Source: Syntrophomonadaceae bacterium
GTDB lineage: Bacteria; Bacillota; Syntrophomonadia; Syntrophomonadales; Syntrophomonadaceae
Assembly (NCBI GenBank): GCA_028706315.1
Contig: JAQWBP010000003.1
Location: 58,488-122,487 of the forward strand
Direction: 5' to 3'
DNA length: 64,000 nucleotides
Below the pieces are notes generated by a model. That model ran no database searches. It worked only from the letters and a program-made list of their open reading frames with translations, and was not told the origin of the DNA. A program made the translations under genes and the position numbers. Positions within the stretch are counted from its first letter, which is position 1, and every line of letters begins with the position of its first letter. Shown here one piece after another: positions 5,417 to 63,908 of this stretch.

Positions 5417-6493
5417 ATGATGGTGGTGATGGGATATCTCGGCGCTGTCATCGGTGCAGGATTTGCCTCAGGTCAGGAGATAGTGCAGTTTTTCGTGGAG
5501 TATGGCTCATGTGGCTTGAGAGGGACTATTTTAGCCACTCTCTTATTTGCAACTAGTGGGGGGATGCTTTTATATATAGCTCATCGCAAAAAGGCCTCCA
5601 ACTACCAGGATATTCTTACGCATATATTGGGTACCCGGGCGGGGAAAATAGTTGATCTGCTGCTGGCATTATTTTTATTTCTAGGCATTAGTACTATGCT
5701 TTCTGCTAGTGGAGCAGTTTTTTATGAACACCTTTATCTGCCCAAAACCCTGGGGATATTCCTGGCTTATGCCCTGGTCATAATCTTGCTAGTAACCGGA
5801 AAAAAAGGCTTGATAGTTTCTTTTAACCTGCTGGTGCCCATCAAATTACTATTACTGCTACTAATTACCGGATATGCCGCGTTATTTATTGATGGTAATG
5901 GGATTGCAACTTATACTACCTTTTTAAGTCCTGCTGAGACCAACTACTGGTTTATAGCCAGTCTATTATACGTAGCATATAATTTTTCCCTGGCTATGGT
6001 GGTATTAGCGGAATACCAGACGGTAACTAATGCACCTAATGGTATAGCGGGGGCAGCGTGGGGTGGTGTAATACTCGGGGGATTACTAGTATTGACTTAT
6101 CTGGCCCTAAGTAAATTTTTACCCATAGTAACCCATTATGAGGTACCGATGTTATATGTAGCTGGTATGATTTCTCCGCAGGCTAAGATTATATATACGT
6201 TGGTTTTATGGGTGGGAATATTAACTACGGCTATTGCTAATGCCTATGGCTTTTCTCAGCGGTTCGCCTCTTTTACTGATATGAGCTATAGTGCATGTTT
6301 GCTTATTTGTATGACTCTGGCCTTACCTGTTGCCATGCAAAGTTTTTCGGTTTTAGTAGGAACCGTGTATCCTTTATTTGGTTTTCTGGGCATAATCATA
6401 CTAGGTGCGCTTATATATAAGGCAACAAAAGACATGGCAGTAGAGATGTATTATAATATTAAAAAGCTAATAAAAGGCACCAGGGAGGCATGA
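5417..6493 (+). CDS. YkvI-family integral membrane transporter
   Basis: This 358-residue protein has about ten hydrophobic segments. Its N-terminal signature GAVIGAGFASGQEIVQFF is characteristic of the YkvI/COG3949 group, distant relatives of amino-acid/cation transporters of the LeuT-like fold. The substrate is unknown. Three in-frame start codons (5417, 5420, 5429) are close together. AAAGGGA at 5407-5413 fits 5420 slightly better, so the exact start is uncertain. It ends 1 base before selA and probably shares its transcript, but no functional link to selenium is known to me. Confidence 0.8.
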   Translation: MMVVMGYLGAVIGAGFASGQEIVQFFVEYGSCGLRGTILATLLFATSGGMLLYIAHRKKASNYQDILTHILGTRAGKIVDLLLALFLFLGISTMLSASGAVFYEHLYLPKTLGIFLAYALVIILLVTGKKGLIVSFNLLVPIKLLLLLLITGYAALFIDGNGIATYTTFLSPAETNYWFIASLLYVAYNFSLAMVVLAEYQTVTNAPNGIAGAAWGGVILGGLLVLTYLALSKFLPIVTHYEVPMLYVAGMISPQAKIIYTLVLWVGILTTAIANAYGFSQRFASFTDMSYSACLLICMTLALPVAMQSFSVLVGTVYPLFGFLGIIILGALIYKATKDMAVEMYYNIKKLIKGTREA

Positions 6494-6494
6494 A

Positions 6495-7895
6495 ATGATA
6501 AACTTTAAAAAAATACCAGCAATTGACGAAATACTTGTACAAACCAAAGTAGAAAAATTTATTAGTTTATATAACCGTGAGTTTGTTGTTGATATGGTCA
6601 GAAAAGCAGTTGATGAGCTGCGCCATGAACTACGGTCTATTGAAAATGAACTAGAAGCAGAAGTATTAATGCAGATTATACTTCAGAAAATGGAGAAAAA
6701 CATATTGCAAACTAGCCGGGGCACATTGCAAAAGGTTATTAATGGAACTGGTGTAGTACTACATACTAACCTGGGTAGAGCGCCGTTAGGATCCCGGGCC
6801 ATTGAATATATGATGGAAATGGCGACCAATTATAATAACCTGGAAATGAATTTGGAACAAGGGGAAAGGGGCTCACGCTACTGGCATGTTGAGGATTTAT
6901 TAGTTCGCCTGACCGGAGCTGAGGGTGCGCTGGTAGTTAATAATAATGCTGCCGCTGTTATGCTGGGACTAACAACTCTGGCCCGTGGCAGAGAGGTAAT
7001 AGTATCCCGGGGACAGCTGGTAGAAATAGGTGGGGCTTTCCGGATACCAGAAGTAATGAAGATGAGTGGAGCTGACCTGGTAGAGGTAGGAACTACTAAT
7101 AAAACTTATGTAACAGATTTTGCAGCAGCTATCAATGAAAATACGGCCCTACTTTTTGCAGCGCATACATCTAATTATAAAATATTAGGATTTAGCGAAG
7201 AAGTGCCCTTGGAAGATCTGGTTAAACTGGGCAAGAAATGCGACTTACCCGTTATGCAAGATCTGGGTAGTGGGATATTGTATAATCTCTGTGAATGGGG
7301 CTTAAAAGAAGAACCAACTGTACAGGATTGTGTTAGTTCAGGAGCAGATATAGTTACCTTCAGTGGAGATAAATTGCTGGGTGGCCCCCAGGCAGGCATA
7401 ATTGTCGGCAAGAAACCGTATATTGAGGCTATGAAAAAAAGCCAGCTGCTCCGCGCACTAAGAGTAGACAAGCTAACTATTGCTGCATTGGAAGGGACTT
7501 TACTTGAATACCTGGAAGGGAAACCGGGAGAAAATATTCCTGTTATTCATATGTTAAGTAGTAGCCGGGAGCAACTAAGGCAAAAGGCAGAAGATTTATG
7601 TCAATTATTAGAGAAAAAGCTTGCTTTATCAGATAAAATCGAGAAGATTGCTGTTGTCGAGCTTGAGGATATGGTAGGAGGAGGAGCATATCCGACCTAT
7701 AAAATTCCTGGTTCGGGAGTAGAGATAAAGTTTAAGCAAATACAACTGGAAAAGGTAGCTGCAAAATTGCGTTTAATGAATCCTGCCTTACTAACACGTA
7801 AACAAGATGATAAGATGTTAATAAGTGTTAGAACATTATTGGCAGAAGATATGGGTATTTTGACTGATATGATAATAAAGGTGCTCAATAGTTAG
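6495..7895 (+). CDS. selA: L-seryl-tRNA(Sec) selenium transferase SelA
   Basis: This 466-residue PLP enzyme converts seryl-tRNA(Sec) to selenocysteinyl-tRNA(Sec) using selenophosphate. The N-terminal tRNA-binding domain, the VINGTGVVLHTNLGRAPLG segment and the PLP-lysine motif SGDKLLGGPQAG (K293) are clear. The ATG overlaps the ykvI stop and follows AGGGAGG. selB begins 18 bases downstream. With tRNA-Sec at 18.9 kb and selD at 22.2 kb, the full bacterial selenocysteine pathway lies in this window. Confidence 0.97.
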   Translation: MINFKKIPAIDEILVQTKVEKFISLYNREFVVDMVRKAVDELRHELRSIENELEAEVLMQIILQKMEKNILQTSRGTLQKVINGTGVVLHTNLGRAPLGSRAIEYMMEMATNYNNLEMNLEQGERGSRYWHVEDLLVRLTGAEGALVVNNNAAAVMLGLTTLARGREVIVSRGQLVEIGGAFRIPEVMKMSGADLVEVGTTNKTYVTDFAAAINENTALLFAAHTSNYKILGFSEEVPLEDLVKLGKKCDLPVMQDLGSGILYNLCEWGLKEEPTVQDCVSSGADIVTFSGDKLLGGPQAGIIVGKKPYIEAMKKSQLLRALRVDKLTIAALEGTLLEYLEGKPGENIPVIHMLSSSREQLRQKAEDLCQLLEKKLALSDKIEKIAVVELEDMVGGGAYPTYKIPGSGVEIKFKQIQLEKVAAKLRLMNPALLTRKQDDKMLISVRTLLAEDMGILTDMIIKVLNS

Positions 7896-18871: not shown

Positions 18872-18970
18872 GGAAGCGGATCGGTCCTGGTGGGTCGCCT
18901 GGACTTCAAATCCAGTTTGCGCGGCGGTGATCCCGTCGCGGGTGAGTTCGATTCTCACACGCTTCCGCCA
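18872..18970 (+). tRNA. selC: tRNA-Sec (anticodon TCA)
   Basis: This 99-base tRNA has an acceptor stem GGAAGCG / CGCTTCC, an anticodon stem CTGGA / TCCAG around loop CTTCAAA (anticodon TCA, 18906-18908), a long variable arm, the T-loop TTCGATT, discriminator G and an encoded CCA. The over-length shape and TCA anticodon identify the selenocysteine tRNA. It reads UGA with SelB, and the window contains a UGA-bearing target in selD. It has its own promoter and terminator. Confidence 0.97.
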
Positions 18971-55299: not shown

Positions 55300-55387
55300 A
55301 GGGAAGTTTAGGAGAAAATACTATAGTATAACATGTTTCACCAATATAGAATAGTAGATTGGGATTATATGCAAAGGAGCGATGAAA

Positions 55388-55600
55388 TTGGATAAACCAT
55401 TAATTTTTGTCCGGGAACGTCGGAAAGTTGTGGAAGGGGAGAAAAAGCCCCGCTTTGCAGTTGTTGGAGTGACTGGCACTGATCTGAAGATATATGCCAA
55501 ACATATTCGTAAAATGGAGATTGAAGAAATAGCGAAATACCTTGAGGCTGAAGTAGTATATTTAAACGCGGGAAAAGAAGATGAAGAAGAACTAGATTAA
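55388..55600 (+). CDS. Small protein preceding the MoSto-like gene, function unknown
   Basis: This 70-residue protein has a basic beginning (MDKPLIFVRERRK), a likely beta strand PRFAVVGVTGTDLKIYAKHI and an acidic C-terminus ending KEDEEELD. I do not recognise the family. TTG 55388 has AAAGGAG eight bases upstream, whereas ATG 55382 overlaps that site. The next gene follows after 26 bases, so the two are probably co-transcribed and may act together. Confidence 0.7.
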   Translation: MDKPLIFVRERRKVVEGEKKPRFAVVGVTGTDLKIYAKHIRKMEIEEIAKYLEAEVVYLNAGKEDEEELD

Positions 55601-55626: not shown

Positions 55627-56460
55627 ATGGCTCTTATCCGTGAAAAGGATAGTAAAAGGCTCCATTTAAAAAGTAAATTAATGGGGGAGTCTTTAGTCAG
55701 TAAGAGTTTTATTAAATCTTTGGAATACACGGAACCATTCCGGCTTTTACCAGAAGTAAATGTTTTAAAAATAGGTGGGCAAAGTATCACGGATATTGGC
55801 GCAAAGGCGATAATTCCGATCATTAATGAAATAGTAGAAAATAAAAACCAGCATAAAATGATTATTTCCACCGGCGGGGGTACCAGATCTCGTCATGTTT
55901 ATGCTATTGCGATGGAACTCGGCATGCCAACCGGAATTATCGCTACTCTGGGGCAGAGTGTCTCTGAGCAAAATGCCCTGATGATATCAACTTTGCTAAG
56001 TCCCTATGGAGGCATTAAAGTAGGACATGATGATATCCCTAAGCTGGCCGGTTATTTTGCTCAGGGCTGTATTCCGGTTATACATGGGATGCCTCCCTAC
56101 GGTTACTGGGAACATCCCCCTAAAGAGGGTCGTATTCCTCCTAATCGCACTGATGTAGGGGCTTATTTGCTGGCGGAAGTGGTGGGAGCTAAACAGTGTA
56201 TATTCATCAAGGATGTTGATGGCTTGTATACTGATAATCCCAAGGTTGATCCAGATGCTGAATTTATACCTCGTATAGGAGCCGGGGAACTTCTGGAGAA
56301 GGATTTTGATGATCTAGTTATTGAGCGGCCCGTTCTGGATTCTCTTTTATACTCCAATAGTGTAACCGAGATTCAGATAATTAATGGTCTAAAGAGCGGC
56401 AATATAACCAGGGCTCTTAATGGAGAACATGTAGGCACTATAATTTATAAAGACAAATAG
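55627..56460 (+). CDS. Amino-acid-kinase-fold protein, molybdenum storage protein (MosA/MosB)-like
   Basis: This 277-residue protein has the kinase-fold pattern NVLKIGGQSITDIGAKAI, IISTGGGTRSRHVYAI, GRIPPNRTDVGAYLLAE and IKDVDGLYTDNP, ending with a NGLKSGNITRALNGEHVGT segment. The PP-R-TDxGA-LLA and GEHVGT segments recall the MosA and MosB subunits of the molybdenum/tungsten storage protein rather than true uridylate kinases. Only one such gene is present, so a homomeric cage is possible. Mo or W would be needed for formate dehydrogenases of a syntrophic anaerobe, which are often selenoproteins. The functional call is inference. Confidence 0.7.
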   Translation: MALIREKDSKRLHLKSKLMGESLVSKSFIKSLEYTEPFRLLPEVNVLKIGGQSITDIGAKAIIPIINEIVENKNQHKMIISTGGGTRSRHVYAIAMELGMPTGIIATLGQSVSEQNALMISTLLSPYGGIKVGHDDIPKLAGYFAQGCIPVIHGMPPYGYWEHPPKEGRIPPNRTDVGAYLLAEVVGAKQCIFIKDVDGLYTDNPKVDPDAEFIPRIGAGELLEKDFDDLVIERPVLDSLLYSNSVTEIQIINGLKSGNITRALNGEHVGTIIYKDK

Positions 56461-56563: not shown

Positions 56564-57850
56564 CTAATCTAGATTGCGCCGATCAAAAACTCTTTTGGTC
56601 TTTTTCTCGCTGCGAGGTAAATCTTGATAAGGTACTACATCAACATCAGCGATAATATTTATGATAGCTTTAATATTATATTGAAATTCCCGGGCAGCAT
56701 GCTCATAAGGATGCAGAGGGTCGGCTTCGACTTTAATTAGAACATTGTCTTTGCCGGCTTCCCGTTCAATAATCATCTGGTATTCACTTGAAAGGCCAGG
56801 AGACATGCGAATCACATCTTCAATCTGGCCAGGATAGACATTTATTCCTTTTATTTTTACAGTATCATCACTGCGGCCTAGTATCCGGCCAGTTTGCGGG
56901 TAAGGTAGGCCGCACTTACATGGTTCAGCTTTTATATACGTCAGGTCATGGGTGCGGTAGCGTACCAGGGGCATACCTTCCTTAACCAGAGTAGTTATAA
57001 CTAGCTCGCCCAGCTGACCAGGAGGCAGGACTTTACCTGTTTCCGGATCAATTATTTCAAAGTAAAGATATTCCGGGAAGTAGTGGATTCCATCATGATA
57101 ATCACAGTCAATACCGATTCCGGGGCCATAAACTTCAGTTAATCCGTATATATCATAGCTTTCTACTCCCAGTAATTCTTCTAGCCGGGTGCGCATTTTC
57201 TCGCCCCAGCGTTCGGAACCAAGTACTGCTTTTTTTAATTTAACCTGTTCTTTTAAATCACGCTTATTTATTTCTTCTGCCAATAACAGTGCATAAGAGG
57301 CGGTACCGATTAAGGCAGTAGCCTGTAAGTCAACCATCATAGCTAGCTGTTTTTCGGTATTACCAGGGCCCATGGGAATAGCCATCGCGCCCAGACGTTC
57401 ACATCCGTTTTGGAAACCTACACCGGCTGTCCATAACCCATAGCCCGGGGTTATCTGGACCCGATCATGATTAGTCAGCCCGGCTATACTCAGACAACGC
57501 TGCATCATATCAGCCCAGTCTTCCACATCCTGCTGCGTGTAGGGGACAATTACCGGCTTACCAGTAGTTCCAGATGTGGAATGTATCCTGACAATCTCTT
57601 CTTCCGGGGCAGCACGTAAAGCTAGTGCTTCTTCCTGACGTAATTCGTCTTTTTCGGTAAAGGGCAGATATTTAATATCATCAACCGTTTTCACATCGCT
57701 AAAGCTAATTCCAGCTTTATTAAATTTACTTTGATAAAACTGCGAATACTCCTGCAGTCGATTCATTAATTTACGCAAGCGAAAAGACTGCATCTCAACT
57801 AAACCAGGGGATTCAAAATGCTCATTTACTAATGATAAACCCTGTCTCAT
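56564..57850 (-). CDS. paaK: Phenylacetate-CoA ligase family protein
   Basis: This 428-residue adenylate-forming enzyme has HSTSGTTGKPVIVPYT (phosphate-binding loop), YGLTEVYGPGIG, VRYRTHDLTYI and GRSDDTVKIKGINVYPGQIED, the usual PaaK pattern. It joins CoA to arylacetates such as phenylacetate or indoleacetate with ATP, and could also run in reverse to gain ATP. It is the third gene of iorA-iorB-paaK, 5 bases after iorB. ATG follows GGAGGG. Confidence 0.92.
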   Translation of the reverse strand: MRQGLSLVNEHFESPGLVEMQSFRLRKLMNRLQEYSQFYQSKFNKAGISFSDVKTVDDIKYLPFTEKDELRQEEALALRAAPEEEIVRIHSTSGTTGKPVIVPYTQQDVEDWADMMQRCLSIAGLTNHDRVQITPGYGLWTAGVGFQNGCERLGAMAIPMGPGNTEKQLAMMVDLQATALIGTASYALLLAEEINKRDLKEQVKLKKAVLGSERWGEKMRTRLEELLGVESYDIYGLTEVYGPGIGIDCDYHDGIHYFPEYLYFEIIDPETGKVLPPGQLGELVITTLVKEGMPLVRYRTHDLTYIKAEPCKCGLPYPQTGRILGRSDDTVKIKGINVYPGQIEDVIRMSPGLSSEYQMIIEREAGKDNVLIKVEADPLHPYEHAAREFQYNIKAIINIIADVDVVPYQDLPRSEKKTKRVFDRRNLD

Positions 57851-57855
57851 CTCAT

Positions 57856-58434
57856 CTATCCCTCCGCATAAGTTTTTCCCAGCTCAAAGGCTCGGGTATT
57901 AATATCTTTTAATTTCTCGGGTAGTTTCTCAATTAGTTCATTAGCTATTTCTGCAGCAGCTATCTCGGAGTATACTGCAGAAAAGGCACCCAGCATAACT
58001 GCACTGACGGCTTTAAGGTTTCCGGCCTGGCGGGCCAGCTCCAGTGCATCGATCAAAATTAGGGTAGGTACCTGCTTTTGCAGATAATCCAGCAAAGCTG
58101 GTTCATTATATGACGAGGCACCCAGGTAGCAGGAAGGGGGTACTATCTTTTGCGTATTGACTATAGCTATGCCCTGGGGGCCTAATTTTTCCAAGTTTCT
58201 TACTGATTCAGCTAATTCAAAACCGAGGAAGAAATCAGCGGCCTGGTCCGGAATTAACGGCCCATTCAAGTCATGGCCAATTCTTACCTGGGAAACTACC
58301 GAACCTTCACGTTGTGACATGCCGATAATCTCTGAGGTTCTTACCTGGAAACCTTGTTTCATGGCGGTATCTCCCAGGACTCTGGAGGCCAGAACTGTTC
58401 CCTGTCCGCCTACACCACACATTATTATATCCAT
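57856..58434 (-). CDS. iorB: Indolepyruvate:ferredoxin oxidoreductase, beta subunit
   Basis: This 192-residue protein starts MDIIMCGVGGQGTVLASRVLG and has EIIGMSQREGSVVSQVRIG, the gamma-domain pattern of 2-oxoacid:ferredoxin oxidoreductases. With IorA it oxidatively decarboxylates aryl pyruvates to aryl-acetyl-CoA. The start overlaps the iorA stop. Confidence 0.95.
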   Translation of the reverse strand: MDIIMCGVGGQGTVLASRVLGDTAMKQGFQVRTSEIIGMSQREGSVVSQVRIGHDLNGPLIPDQAADFFLGFELAESVRNLEKLGPQGIAIVNTQKIVPPSCYLGASSYNEPALLDYLQKQVPTLILIDALELARQAGNLKAVSAVMLGAFSAVYSEIAAAEIANELIEKLPEKLKDINTRAFELGKTYAEG

Positions 58435-60239
58435 TATCTACCACCTCCTTGGATGGCATCAAAGGGACAAACTTCTACACACAACCCGCAGCCCACACAA
58501 GTTTCAAATACCCGGGGTTTTTGCCCCTTTTCCATGACTAGGGCCGGGCAGCCTATTTCTGTAACACACAAACCACAATCACGGCATTTTTGCTCATCAA
58601 CAAAGACTGGATTACTGGCAGCTTTATGGCCGGGTAAGTTTATGCATTCTCTTTTCATAATGACTACAGAAGGTTCCTGGTAGTCCAGAGATTCCTTAAC
58701 CGCCTGAACTGCAGCTTTGAGGTTAACCGGATCGACAATTTTAATCGATTTTACCCCACAGCCTTCGATTAGCTTTACCATATCTACTATGGGAACTTCT
58801 TCTCCCATGGCCGTTTGTCCGGTACCAGGATGAGGCTGAAATCCGGTCATCGCAGTAGTGCTGTTATCAAGTATTACCAGGGTCAGGGGGTACTGGTTAT
58901 AAACTGCGTTAATTAAGCCGGGAATTCCGGTATGATAAAAAGTCGAATCCCCCAGTACGGCGATAGTTTTCCGGCCTGGTTCAGCTCGCCCGATACCCTG
59001 AGCTTCAGTTATAGAGGCTCCCATGCACAGGCAGGTATCAACTGCTGACAGAGGAGGCATCGTACCCAGGGTATAGCAGCCAATATCACCAGTGAAAACC
59101 ACATCTGATTTTTTCCCAGCTGCTTTGCGAATAGCGTAGAATGAGGCCCGGTGTGGACATCCCGCACAAAGGATCGGGGCACGGGCTGGTAATTCGGGTT
59201 TTTCTGCTACCGACATTTCTGGAAGGGATTTACCTAGCCAGGTAGCAATAACCTTTTCAACCAGGTCAACGTTTAATTCGCCAACTCCGGGAACTAGACG
59301 ATCGTTTTTCCCATGTAATTCCGTTTTTATACCAGTTTTTCCGACCAGCCGGAAAATTTCATTCTCCAGCACTGGATCAAGTTCTTCTACTACCAGTAGG
59401 GATTGCTTATCCTTTATAAATGAGGTCACTAGTTTATCAGGGAAAGGATAAGGAGTACCAATCTTAAGCACTGCCGGCTTAACCTGTAACCGTTGTAAAG
59501 CCTCTTTGACGTAATAATAACTGACACCAGAACAGACAATTCCCCGGTCATCTTCGCCCTCAGTAAGGTTAAAGGCAGAAGTAGAAAAGTCCTCACTTAT
59601 GTTCTGGAGGGTATCAATTAAATCACTATGTTTCCGCCTTGATACATTAGGAAAGATGACATAGTCTGACCCTTTTTCAAAACGAGCCTTGGGGGATGTA
59701 AAATATGTTTCCGGTATGTTTACATCCTGGCATACATGACATACCCGGGTAGTAGGACGGAGTATTACCGGCAAGTGGTAACGTTCTGATATATTAAATG
59801 CTTCTATAGTCATGTCTAGAGCTTCCTGAGGATCTGCCGGGTCGAATACTGGTACTTTGGCAAAATTAGCAAAGTTCCTGGTATCCTGCTCGGTCTGTGA
59901 GCTATGTGGACCTGGATCATCTGCCACTACGATCACCAGTCCCCCTTTAACACCAAGGTAGGTACCAGTTAGTAATGGATCTGCTGCCACATTTAGCCCC
60001 ACCTGTTTCATAGAAACCAGACTGCGGGCTCCACTAATTGCTGCACCATAGGCAATCTCCAGGGCAACTTTTTCATTAACACACCATTCAGCATGAAAAT
60101 CAAATTCTTCTGCGAAATTTATCAGGGTAGAGAAAACCTCGGTAGACGGTGTCCCTGGGTAAGCTGTTGCCACCCTGATACCAGCCTTTATTGCTCCGTG
60201 AGCTATTGCTTCATTACCAAGAAGTAATTTCCTTGTCAA
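58434..60239 (-). CDS. iorA: Indolepyruvate:ferredoxin oxidoreductase, alpha subunit
   Basis: This roughly 601-residue protein begins TRKLLLGNEAIAHGAIKAG, with AYPGTPSTEV, a TPP-binding region (GDIGCYTLG, GDSTFYHTGIPGLINAVYN) and two C-terminal [4Fe-4S] clusters (CRDCGLCVTEIGCP and CVGCGLCVEVCP). It uses TPP, CoA and ferredoxin with indolepyruvate, phenylpyruvate or hydroxyphenylpyruvate. TTG 60239 has GGAAGCGAGG eight bases upstream; TTG 60266 lies at the end of the leader terminator and has no ribosome site. The leader carries a TRAP-like array and terminator. Confidence 0.95.
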   Translation of the reverse strand: MTRKLLLGNEAIAHGAIKAGIRVATAYPGTPSTEVFSTLINFAEEFDFHAEWCVNEKVALEIAYGAAISGARSLVSMKQVGLNVAADPLLTGTYLGVKGGLVIVVADDPGPHSSQTEQDTRNFANFAKVPVFDPADPQEALDMTIEAFNISERYHLPVILRPTTRVCHVCQDVNIPETYFTSPKARFEKGSDYVIFPNVSRRKHSDLIDTLQNISEDFSTSAFNLTEGEDDRGIVCSGVSYYYVKEALQRLQVKPAVLKIGTPYPFPDKLVTSFIKDKQSLLVVEELDPVLENEIFRLVGKTGIKTELHGKNDRLVPGVGELNVDLVEKVIATWLGKSLPEMSVAEKPELPARAPILCAGCPHRASFYAIRKAAGKKSDVVFTGDIGCYTLGTMPPLSAVDTCLCMGASITEAQGIGRAEPGRKTIAVLGDSTFYHTGIPGLINAVYNQYPLTLVILDNSTTAMTGFQPHPGTGQTAMGEEVPIVDMVKLIEGCGVKSIKIVDPVNLKAAVQAVKESLDYQEPSVVIMKRECINLPGHKAASNPVFVDEQKCRDCGLCVTEIGCPALVMEKGQKPRVFETCVGCGLCVEVCPFDAIQGGGR

Positions 60240-60267
60240 GATATAAACCTCGCTTCCTAGTCTCAAT

Positions 60268-60295
60268 AAAAAAACCAGATCCTAGTAGATCTGGT
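60268..60295 (-). terminator. Leader (attenuator) terminator upstream of iorA
   Basis: On the minus strand ACCAGATC (60295-60288) pairs with GATCTGGT (60281-60274) around a 6-base loop, followed by seven T. It ends 29 bases before the iorA start codon, so it must be bypassed for the operon to be expressed. Confidence 0.88.
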
Positions 60296-60309
60296 ACTAT
60301 TTCCATTAA

Positions 60310-60352
60310 CTAAGCTCAACTATTCTCATCTCAACTCATCTCTACTAAACTC
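60310..60352 (-). promoter_or_regulatory. TRAP (MtrB)-like binding site: nine (G/U)AG triplets at 5-nt spacing
   Basis: Read on the minus strand, the triplets are GAG, UAG, GAG, GAG, GAG, GAG, UAG, GAG, UAG, each separated by exactly two bases over 43 bases. TRAP, the tryptophan-activated RNA-binding attenuation protein, wraps RNA with 9-11 such triplets separated by two or three bases. The array is directly upstream of an intrinsic terminator. A UAGUAGA segment in triplets 2-3 (60347-60341) can pair with UCUACUA in the terminator (60289-60283), a weak antiterminator that covers only two bases of the stem. Confidence 0.8.
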
Positions 60353-60371
60353 ATCTTATTTTATTTACTTA

Positions 60372-60401
60372 ATTTTATCATTAGCCGTAAGCAAATGTAA
60401 A
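60372..60401 (-). promoter_or_regulatory. Possible promoter of the ior operon
   Basis: On the minus strand TTTACA (60401-60396) and TAAAAT (60377-60372) are 18 bases apart, placing the start just upstream of the triplet array. The match is only moderate. Confidence 0.4.
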
Positions 60402-60550
60402 TAGGAGAAGTGTATAAGCACGAAATATTCCAGGCATAATATGGAGATTTCTGCATTTGCGGTGTAAAACTTAAATTTTAAGCGGAGGGAATTAAATTGA
60501 TTTGCGTTCAGGGAGGGGGCAAAGAGTAGATAAAAGTAATGCTGTAATTA

Positions 60551-60588
60551 AATGGAGCAGAGAATTTTTAGAAGATTCCCTGCTCCAA
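60551..60588 (-). terminator. Probable terminator of the Gln-rich protein gene
   Basis: GGAGCAG / CTGCTCC plus GAAT / ATTC with one mismatch; on the minus strand ATTTAATT follows. The T-run is weak. Confidence 0.55.
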
Positions 60589-60594
60589 AACTGT

Positions 60595-60882
60595 CTAGGA
60601 TAATGTATTGCCGGCATCGAAGGCCTGGGATTCCCGGCGTAGCATGGTTTCTGCTTGTTGCAGTTCCATTTGCTGTTGGGCGGATAGACTAGATCCGGAG
60701 TTTTGCAGAGCCTGTTGGACCTGTTGAATAGCAGTGTTTAATTGTTGCTCAGCAGCTTGGATCTGCTGGGAGTTTAGGCTAGCCTGAGCCTGTTGTGCAG
60801 TCCGCCTGGCCTGCTGCGCGGTGAGGATTGCCTGCTGTGCAGTCTGGTTTGCCTGGGATAACTGTTGCTCTTGGGCGTCCAT
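60595..60882 (-). CDS. Gln/Ala-rich heptad-repeat protein, function unknown
   Basis: This 95-residue protein (from ATG 60882, after GGAGGTAAT) is largely Gln and Ala and contains three exact seven-residue steps of TAQQA. A long coiled coil with amphipathic spacing is expected. No signal peptide, enzyme motif or membrane segment is seen. An in-frame start at 60927 lacks a ribosome site. I do not recognise the family; a role in spore coat or envelope is possible but unproven. Confidence 0.7.
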   Translation of the reverse strand: MDAQEQQLSQANQTAQQAILTAQQARRTAQQAQASLNSQQIQAAEQQLNTAIQQVQQALQNSGSSLSAQQQMELQQAETMLRRESQAFDAGNTLS

Positions 60883-63698: not shown

Positions 63699-63805
63699 GT
63701 GAATATATTACCAGCGATATCGGGATGACAGACTATGACTTTTCATATATAATTGGAGAAATATAAAATTAATTCCGCAGTCGAATCAAAATTTAATAAA
63801 AGCGA

Positions 63806-63908
63806 CCTTATCAAGAGAGGTTGAGGGACGGGCCCGATGACACCCGGCAACAACCAGTTAACTGGAAATGTGCCAATTCCTGCAGGATATTTTCCTGAGA
63901 GATAAGAA
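63806..63908 (+). ncRNA. SAM-I riboswitch (S-box) aptamer
   Basis: The conserved core is clear: CTTATCAAGAGAGGTTGAGGG (in part: ATCAAGAGAGG, GAGGGACGGGCCCGATGA), CCCGGCAACAACC, GTGCCAATTCC and CTGAGAGATAAG, with P1 CTTATC (63807-63812) / GATAAG (63901-63906). It should switch off a downstream methionine or SAM-related gene, which lies beyond the window. Confidence 0.95.

Follow-up and report, generated by a model that had tools for sequence, protein, structure and literature searches.

The ior operon and its leader

The DNA analysed here, a stretch of 64,000 nucleotides from a Syntrophomonadaceae genome (the window), carries on its minus strand the genes iorA, iorB and a paaK-like gene, preceded by a leader with a run of (G/U)AG triplets and an intrinsic terminator (Table 1). 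IorA, which has TPP and 4Fe-4S domains, matched TIGR03336 with 783.7 bits, above the curated cutoff of 650.9. For IorB, the best NCBIfam matches were to beta-subunit models of indolepyruvate oxidoreductase (187.7 bits; cutoff, 237), and the PaaK-like protein, a relative of phenylacetate-CoA ligase, scored 382.5 bits against TIGR02155 (cutoff, 646.3). The substrates are thus uncertain, since both proteins score below the equivalog cutoffs, though both are clear family members whose domains agree. The operon ends ahead of a convergent gene (55627-56460, plus strand) similar to molybdenum storage protein beta (PDB 2ogx_B, E=8e-76), which a 72-aa ORF at 55382-55600 adjoins. The window also contains, on the plus strand, a SAM riboswitch (63805-63908; RF00162, 88 bits) and a selenocysteine tRNA (18872-18966; RF01852, 71.9 bits).

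Table 1. Features of the ior operon and its leader in the window
Feature	Positions	Strand	Basis
Candidate promoter, TTTACA-18-TAAAAT	60372..60401	-	10/12 consensus
Predicted TRAP binding site, nine (G/U)AG triplets, 2-nt spacers	60310..60352	-	Sequence, shuffles, conservation in relatives
Triplets 1-5	GAG 60352-60350, TAG 60347-45, GAG 60342-40, GAG 60337-35, GAG 60332-30	-	Sequence
Triplets 6-9	GAG 60327-25, TAG 60322-20, GAG 60317-15, TAG 60312-10	-	Sequence
Candidate antiterminator 5' strand, UUUAGUAGA (triplet 2 and part of triplet 3)	60341..60349	-	Sequence, truncated-transcript fold
Candidate antiterminator 3' strand, UCUACUAGG, overlapping the terminator	60281..60289	-	Sequence, truncated-transcript fold
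Intrinsic terminator, 9-bp stem 60295-60274, T-run 60274-60268	60268..60295	-	Sequence, fold, terminator scan
Likely ribosome binding site, AGGAAGCGAGG	60248..60258	-	8 nt before TTG; similar site before the TTG of relatives
iorA, indolepyruvate:ferredoxin oxidoreductase alpha, 601 aa from TTG	58434..60239	-	TIGR03336
iorB, beta subunit	57856..58434	-	NCBIfam, PF01558
paaK-like, AMP-forming arylacetate-CoA ligase	56564..57850	-	TIGR02155, PF00501, PF14535

The start of iorA was placed at the TTG at 60239 because homologues at three other loci (L099, L101 and L103) begin at the equivalent TTG; the listed ORF start at 60266 falls within the leader. The leader from 60356 to 60237 reads AGATGAGTTTAGTAGAGATGAGTTGAGATGAGAATAGTTGAGCTTAGTTAATGGAAATAGTACCAGATCTACTAGGATCTGGTTTTTTTATTGAGACTAGGAAGCGAGGTTTATATCTTG on the minus strand, and its nine triplets follow one another at an exact period of 5 nt, all of the spacers being exactly 2 nt. 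Two promoter-like sites were found in 60200-60600 against a shuffle mean of 1.3, so the candidate promoter is weak evidence alone, and TTTACA-18-TAGAAT can be read at the equivalent place in leaders of genus g22. A six-triplet pattern gave four overlapping matches in the window, all at the ior leader, and none in 100 dinucleotide shuffles, by which a chance origin of nine exact triplets is not expected. Dinucleotide shuffles were used instead of a pattern-reversed control, which is not independent for all-GAG runs because GAG reversed is GAG.

TRAP and the distribution of its predicted sites

The genome holds one intact mtrB gene, which encodes TRAP (PF02081, E=5.1e-39, 133.6 bits). Its product matched the solved TRAP structure 1c9s with E=1.6e-28 and carries the segments HHxEKLDKGEV and AIKIRG, which we take to hold the RNA-binding residues Lys37, Lys56 and Arg58. 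Anti-TRAP (rtpA, PF15777) was not convincingly found in the genome, the only match being below the cutoff and within a 407-aa open frame. Searching the 2.5 Mb genome with a seven-triplet pattern and at most one mismatch returned only three loci, namely the leader of trpE-trpD-trpC-trpF-trpB-trpA, the beginning of a TrpB-like gene (the run there overlaps its start codon) and the ior leader. That these runs mark the tryptophan genes and ior, and nothing else, already makes a strong case. In the trp leader (L011, about 6483-6600), the terminator falls within the mechanically called start of the trpE ORF, and the true trpE start is thus probably further downstream. At locus L009, a run of N lies in the contig shortly downstream of mtrB, inside a phosphofructokinase-like gene.

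Within the order, mtrB is present in 45 of 63 genomes and a seven-triplet run in 21 of 63; the sites examined precede trpE, trpB/A, trpD, TrpB-like, TrpX-like transporter or iorA genes. Across the order and the phylum, nearly all of the other TRAP-like runs examined precede trpE/D/B, trpB-like, TrpX, TrpP or DAHP synthase genes. Simple repeats (G164, G445, G411, G183 and G148) and one match in a coding region (G425) were set aside as non-TRAP. Three TRAP-like runs (G100:C14, G373:C1 and G431:C4; L228, L226 and L230) lie just downstream of mtrB and upstream of a DAHP synthase gene or trpE, with mtrB positioned as if heading an operon under its own control. Another locus (L183, G016:C64) has a pair of TRAP-like sites flanking a terminator, between trpB-trpA and trpD-trpC. 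Before TrpX-like ABC transporter genes (L185, G007:C32; L014, G010:C71), the run ends near the ribosome binding site, and no terminator was seen in these two leaders, an arrangement resembling translational control.

Three genera (g1, g5 and g22), whose named family members are Syntrophomonadaceae MAGs, have the order triplets-terminator-iorA-iorB-paaK in common. The window-type iorA orthologues of g5 (G015) and g22 (G053-G057) are preceded by the run and then the terminator, and are followed by iorB and paaK wherever the contig extends far enough. When the leaders of the window and g22 were held in a nine-unit register, which required the removal of one inserted base in L041, the triplets differed in 0% of pairwise comparisons at G, 9% at A and 43% at the K position, and the two spacer positions in 39% and 31%. 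The terminator sequences of the genera are unrelated, with the stems ACCAGATC, CGGATCG and GGCCAGGTCAAC. One window-type orthologue (L047 in G036) has iorA-iorB-paaK and lacks a TRAP-like leader.

In a phylum sample of 399 genomes, iorA was located in 251, and triplet chains were scored in about 320 bases upstream of approximately 120 iorA copies, including a few from duplicate genome records. The scores were sharply split: the window's own family reached 4.3-9 and other families up to 8, while nearly all other copies scored 1-3. TRAP-like runs before iorA (score of at least 4) occurred in about a dozen families besides its own, with top scores of 8 in G284 and G202 and lower positive scores in G245, G064, G307, G236, G316, G119, G078, G096, G095, G134 and G268. 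The leaders of family f16 (scores of 4-6.8, mostly only 4-7 triplets) are mostly shorter and are weaker evidence than the other positives. Every leader scoring at least 4 had a shuffle frequency of 0.0025 or less.

A careful maximum-likelihood tree of 67 IorA sequences placed all TRAP-positive leaders in clade A (support 100/99; 24 of 39 rows). None of the 25 rows of clade B (support 100/100) was positive, and this clade includes the second iorA copy of the source genome (L179), which has neither a TRAP site nor an adjacent paaK. The difference between the clades (Fisher p = 1e-7) is uncorrected for phylogeny and inflated by relatedness. The leader label requires 10 changes on the tree and is therefore patchy within clade A, where no recognisable site precedes the iorA of L047, L249, L268 and L271; among the negatives, L255, L258 and L265 have partial runs, and others lie immediately downstream of other genes. 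The mtrB gene is present in all 20 genomes of the phylum sample that have a TRAP-like leader before ior, against 200 of 399 overall (uncorrected for kinship). Many clade A negatives also have mtrB, and the co-occurrence indicates compatibility rather than a tight match of presence and absence.

These data bear on the possibility that the run is a chance or simple-sequence feature before an ordinary terminator. Pure repeats do yield pattern matches in a few genomes (e.g., G164 and G445). However, the spacers of the ior leader are varied and form no repeat, the shuffles gave no match, and conservation in three genera together with recurrence across families before the same gene contradicts this explanation, leaving it all but excluded. 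The original prediction had judged nine regular triplets unlikely by chance, which held, and had named checks, of which the two that rest on sequence were passed: the presence of mtrB in the genome and its relatives, and the conservation of the triplets in related ior leaders. In these leaders the spacers drift, and the terminator sequence is entirely different.

Terminator, antiterminator and the attenuation model

The terminator is ACCAGATCT-ACTA-GGATCTGGT followed by T7 (-12.1 kcal/mol); a scan of 60200-60600 detected no other, and shuffles gave a mean of 0.2. The original prediction of nine (G/U)AG triplets at a 5-base period from 60352 to 60310 on the minus strand held to the base, as did a terminator ending 29 bases before iorA; the gap between the last triplet and the terminator stem is 14 bases rather than the 15 it gave. 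Its description of the antiterminator as weak, with seven pairs, held only in part. The candidate UUUAGUAGA/UCUACUAGG has nine pairs, two of them G-U, and the truncated leader, in which the 3' arm of the terminator is not yet made, was predicted to fold at -10.3 kcal/mol with triplets 2-3 paired with the terminator arm and loop, compared to -1.4 kcal/mol with the triplets blocked, so that the structure is less weak than had been supposed. The terminator and antiterminator folds are mutually exclusive in the model. Because the minimum-energy fold of the full-length leader (-16.4) contains the terminator and the antiterminator overlaps only part of it, anti-termination must be kinetic.

A terminator, taken as the best hairpin with a T-run in a search without a null, separates the triplets from iorA in each of the 29 leaders examined, and in most of them its arm or its loop forms pairs with the triplet region. 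When triplet regions and terminators were swapped among 16 leaders, matched pairs surpassed swapped ones both in ddG (11.6 vs 9.4, p = 0.001) and in the number of paired nucleotides (10.2 vs 6.9, p = 0.0005). This advantage is real but modest, the swapped leaders also showing a large effect, since GAG-rich RNA pairs with many partners.

Considering these results, we propose the following scenario. When tryptophan is plentiful, the MtrB ring loaded with tryptophan would wrap the nine triplets of the nascent RNA and bar them from pairing with the ascending arm and loop of the terminator, which would then form and halt transcription before iorA. When tryptophan is scarce, the leader RNA would pair with itself as the antiterminator, and iorA-iorB-paaK would be transcribed. 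The ior leader is very likely a TRAP-dependent transcription attenuator, as originally predicted for this operon, though binding, termination and the effect of tryptophan on it are inferred, no binding or expression data being available.

TRAP may also bind and act mainly without an antiterminator switch, the bound ring provoking termination or affecting ior translation, which remains possible. TRAP of Bacillus subtilis can bring about termination with no need of the attenuator hairpin (PMC3913778), the overlap between antiterminator and terminator at the ior leader is partial, and TrpB-like sites in the family overlap the start codon, making translational control by TRAP plausible in the same genome. 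Against this stand the terminator present in 29 of 29 leaders and the advantage of matched over swapped pairs; furthermore, direct blocking of the ribosome binding site is unlikely, since the last triplet lies about 50 nt from it. Another kind of tryptophan-sensing leader, a T-box or ribosome-mediated attenuation through a leader peptide, is practically ruled out. Such attenuators control tryptophan genes in other bacteria. An Rfam scan of the ior leader, however, returned no T-box or other RNA family, and the only short reading frame seen in the leader, ATGAGTTTAGTAGAGATGAGTTGA, has no Trp codon.

The TRAP attenuator thus remains the preferred reading, and it resembles the trpEDCFBA leader of B. 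subtilis, which likewise has short-spaced (G/U)AG triplets upstream of a terminator, in a genome that likewise has mtrB; the competition of that terminator with a triplet-containing antiterminator has a computed, candidate counterpart in the ior leader. The two differ in that the ior leader has nine triplets without a 3-nt spacer, whereas the B. subtilis trp leader has 11 with spacers of 2-3 nt, and in that the former would control iorAB-paaK with a terminator sequence of its own and the latter controls the trp genes. ycbK is a TRAP target of B. subtilis. The sites of B. subtilis trpG, trpP and ycbK are similar to the ior site in triplet number (9-11 reported) and in belonging to tryptophan-metabolism genes, but they block the ribosome binding site, whereas the ior site precedes a terminator, away from the ribosome binding site.

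Direction of the ior pathway

In the pathway that we infer, PaaK would turn aryl acids (indoleacetate, phenylacetates) into aryl-CoA, Ior would reductively carboxylate aryl-CoA to arylpyruvates, and an aminotransferase would convert these to Trp, Phe or Tyr. The operon is likely an anabolic, tryptophan-repressed salvage route to aromatic amino acids, the direction of flux being inferred. This direction is favoured because TRAP lowers expression at high tryptophan, because PaaK-type ligases spend ATP in making aryl-CoA, and because of an association with trpP: in G179, a TRAP-like site is followed by a TrpP-family gene (PF17099), two ATPase genes, an ECF T component gene and then iorA-iorB-paaK. 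The statement in the original prediction that the genes handle indolepyruvate and arylacetates is refined in that the operon more probably makes than degrades aromatic amino acids. An archaeal precedent is Methanococcus maripaludis, which can also obtain its aromatic amino acids from aryl acids by way of indolepyruvate oxidoreductase (Porat et al., cited in PMC4162585).

Alternatively, the attenuator may be real and the operon catabolic, with Ior oxidizing indolepyruvate from the breakdown of tryptophan. Ior is commonly regarded as an oxidative enzyme, and its reaction is reversible. This reading is nevertheless unlikely, as TRAP switches its targets off at high tryptophan, when a degradation pathway would need to be on, and activation of the acid by an AMP-forming ligase costs ATP, as is well established for PaaK-type enzymes. 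Clade A, moreover, is linked to TRAP and in G179 apparently shares an operon with trpP, whereas the clade B copy L179 has neither the leader nor an adjacent paaK, and the synthesis of aromatic amino acids from aryl acids by M. maripaludis also speaks against a catabolic role.

Returning to the biosynthetic reading, TRAP attenuators are already known, and iorAB-paaK would be a new target pathway within the scope of the open-access literature. The TRAP targets named in the literature searched are trp, trpG and trpP; to our knowledge, TRAP targets are few and all concern the classical synthesis or uptake of tryptophan. For the aryl-acid route, known from archaea, no report of control by tryptophan through TRAP was found, either for archaea or for bacteria. 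The open-access literature searched likewise held no report of TRAP with ior, an absence that is not proof. If true, a recurring TRAP leader on iorAB-paaK enlarges the TRAP regulon and offers a regulatory argument for the direction of an Ior clade in bacteria, from aryl acids to aromatic amino acids rather than degradation.

A bolder reading, towards which the balance tips only slightly and as a whole, is that IorAB of clade A and a PaaK-type ligase may constitute a branch of the TRAP regulon devoted to biosynthesis in about a dozen families of the phylum, regenerating aromatic amino acids from aryl acids (for example, indoleacetate) that the cell scavenges, under repression by tryptophan, with at least one lineage apparently having the pathway in the same operon as a TrpP-type ECF transporter. 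Where the flanks of clade A loci were inspected, iorB and paaK usually come next after iorA. The coding sequences abutting iorA in G260, G210 and G144 resemble the ECF T component of G179, and in G374 a triplet run likewise precedes a paaK-like gene.
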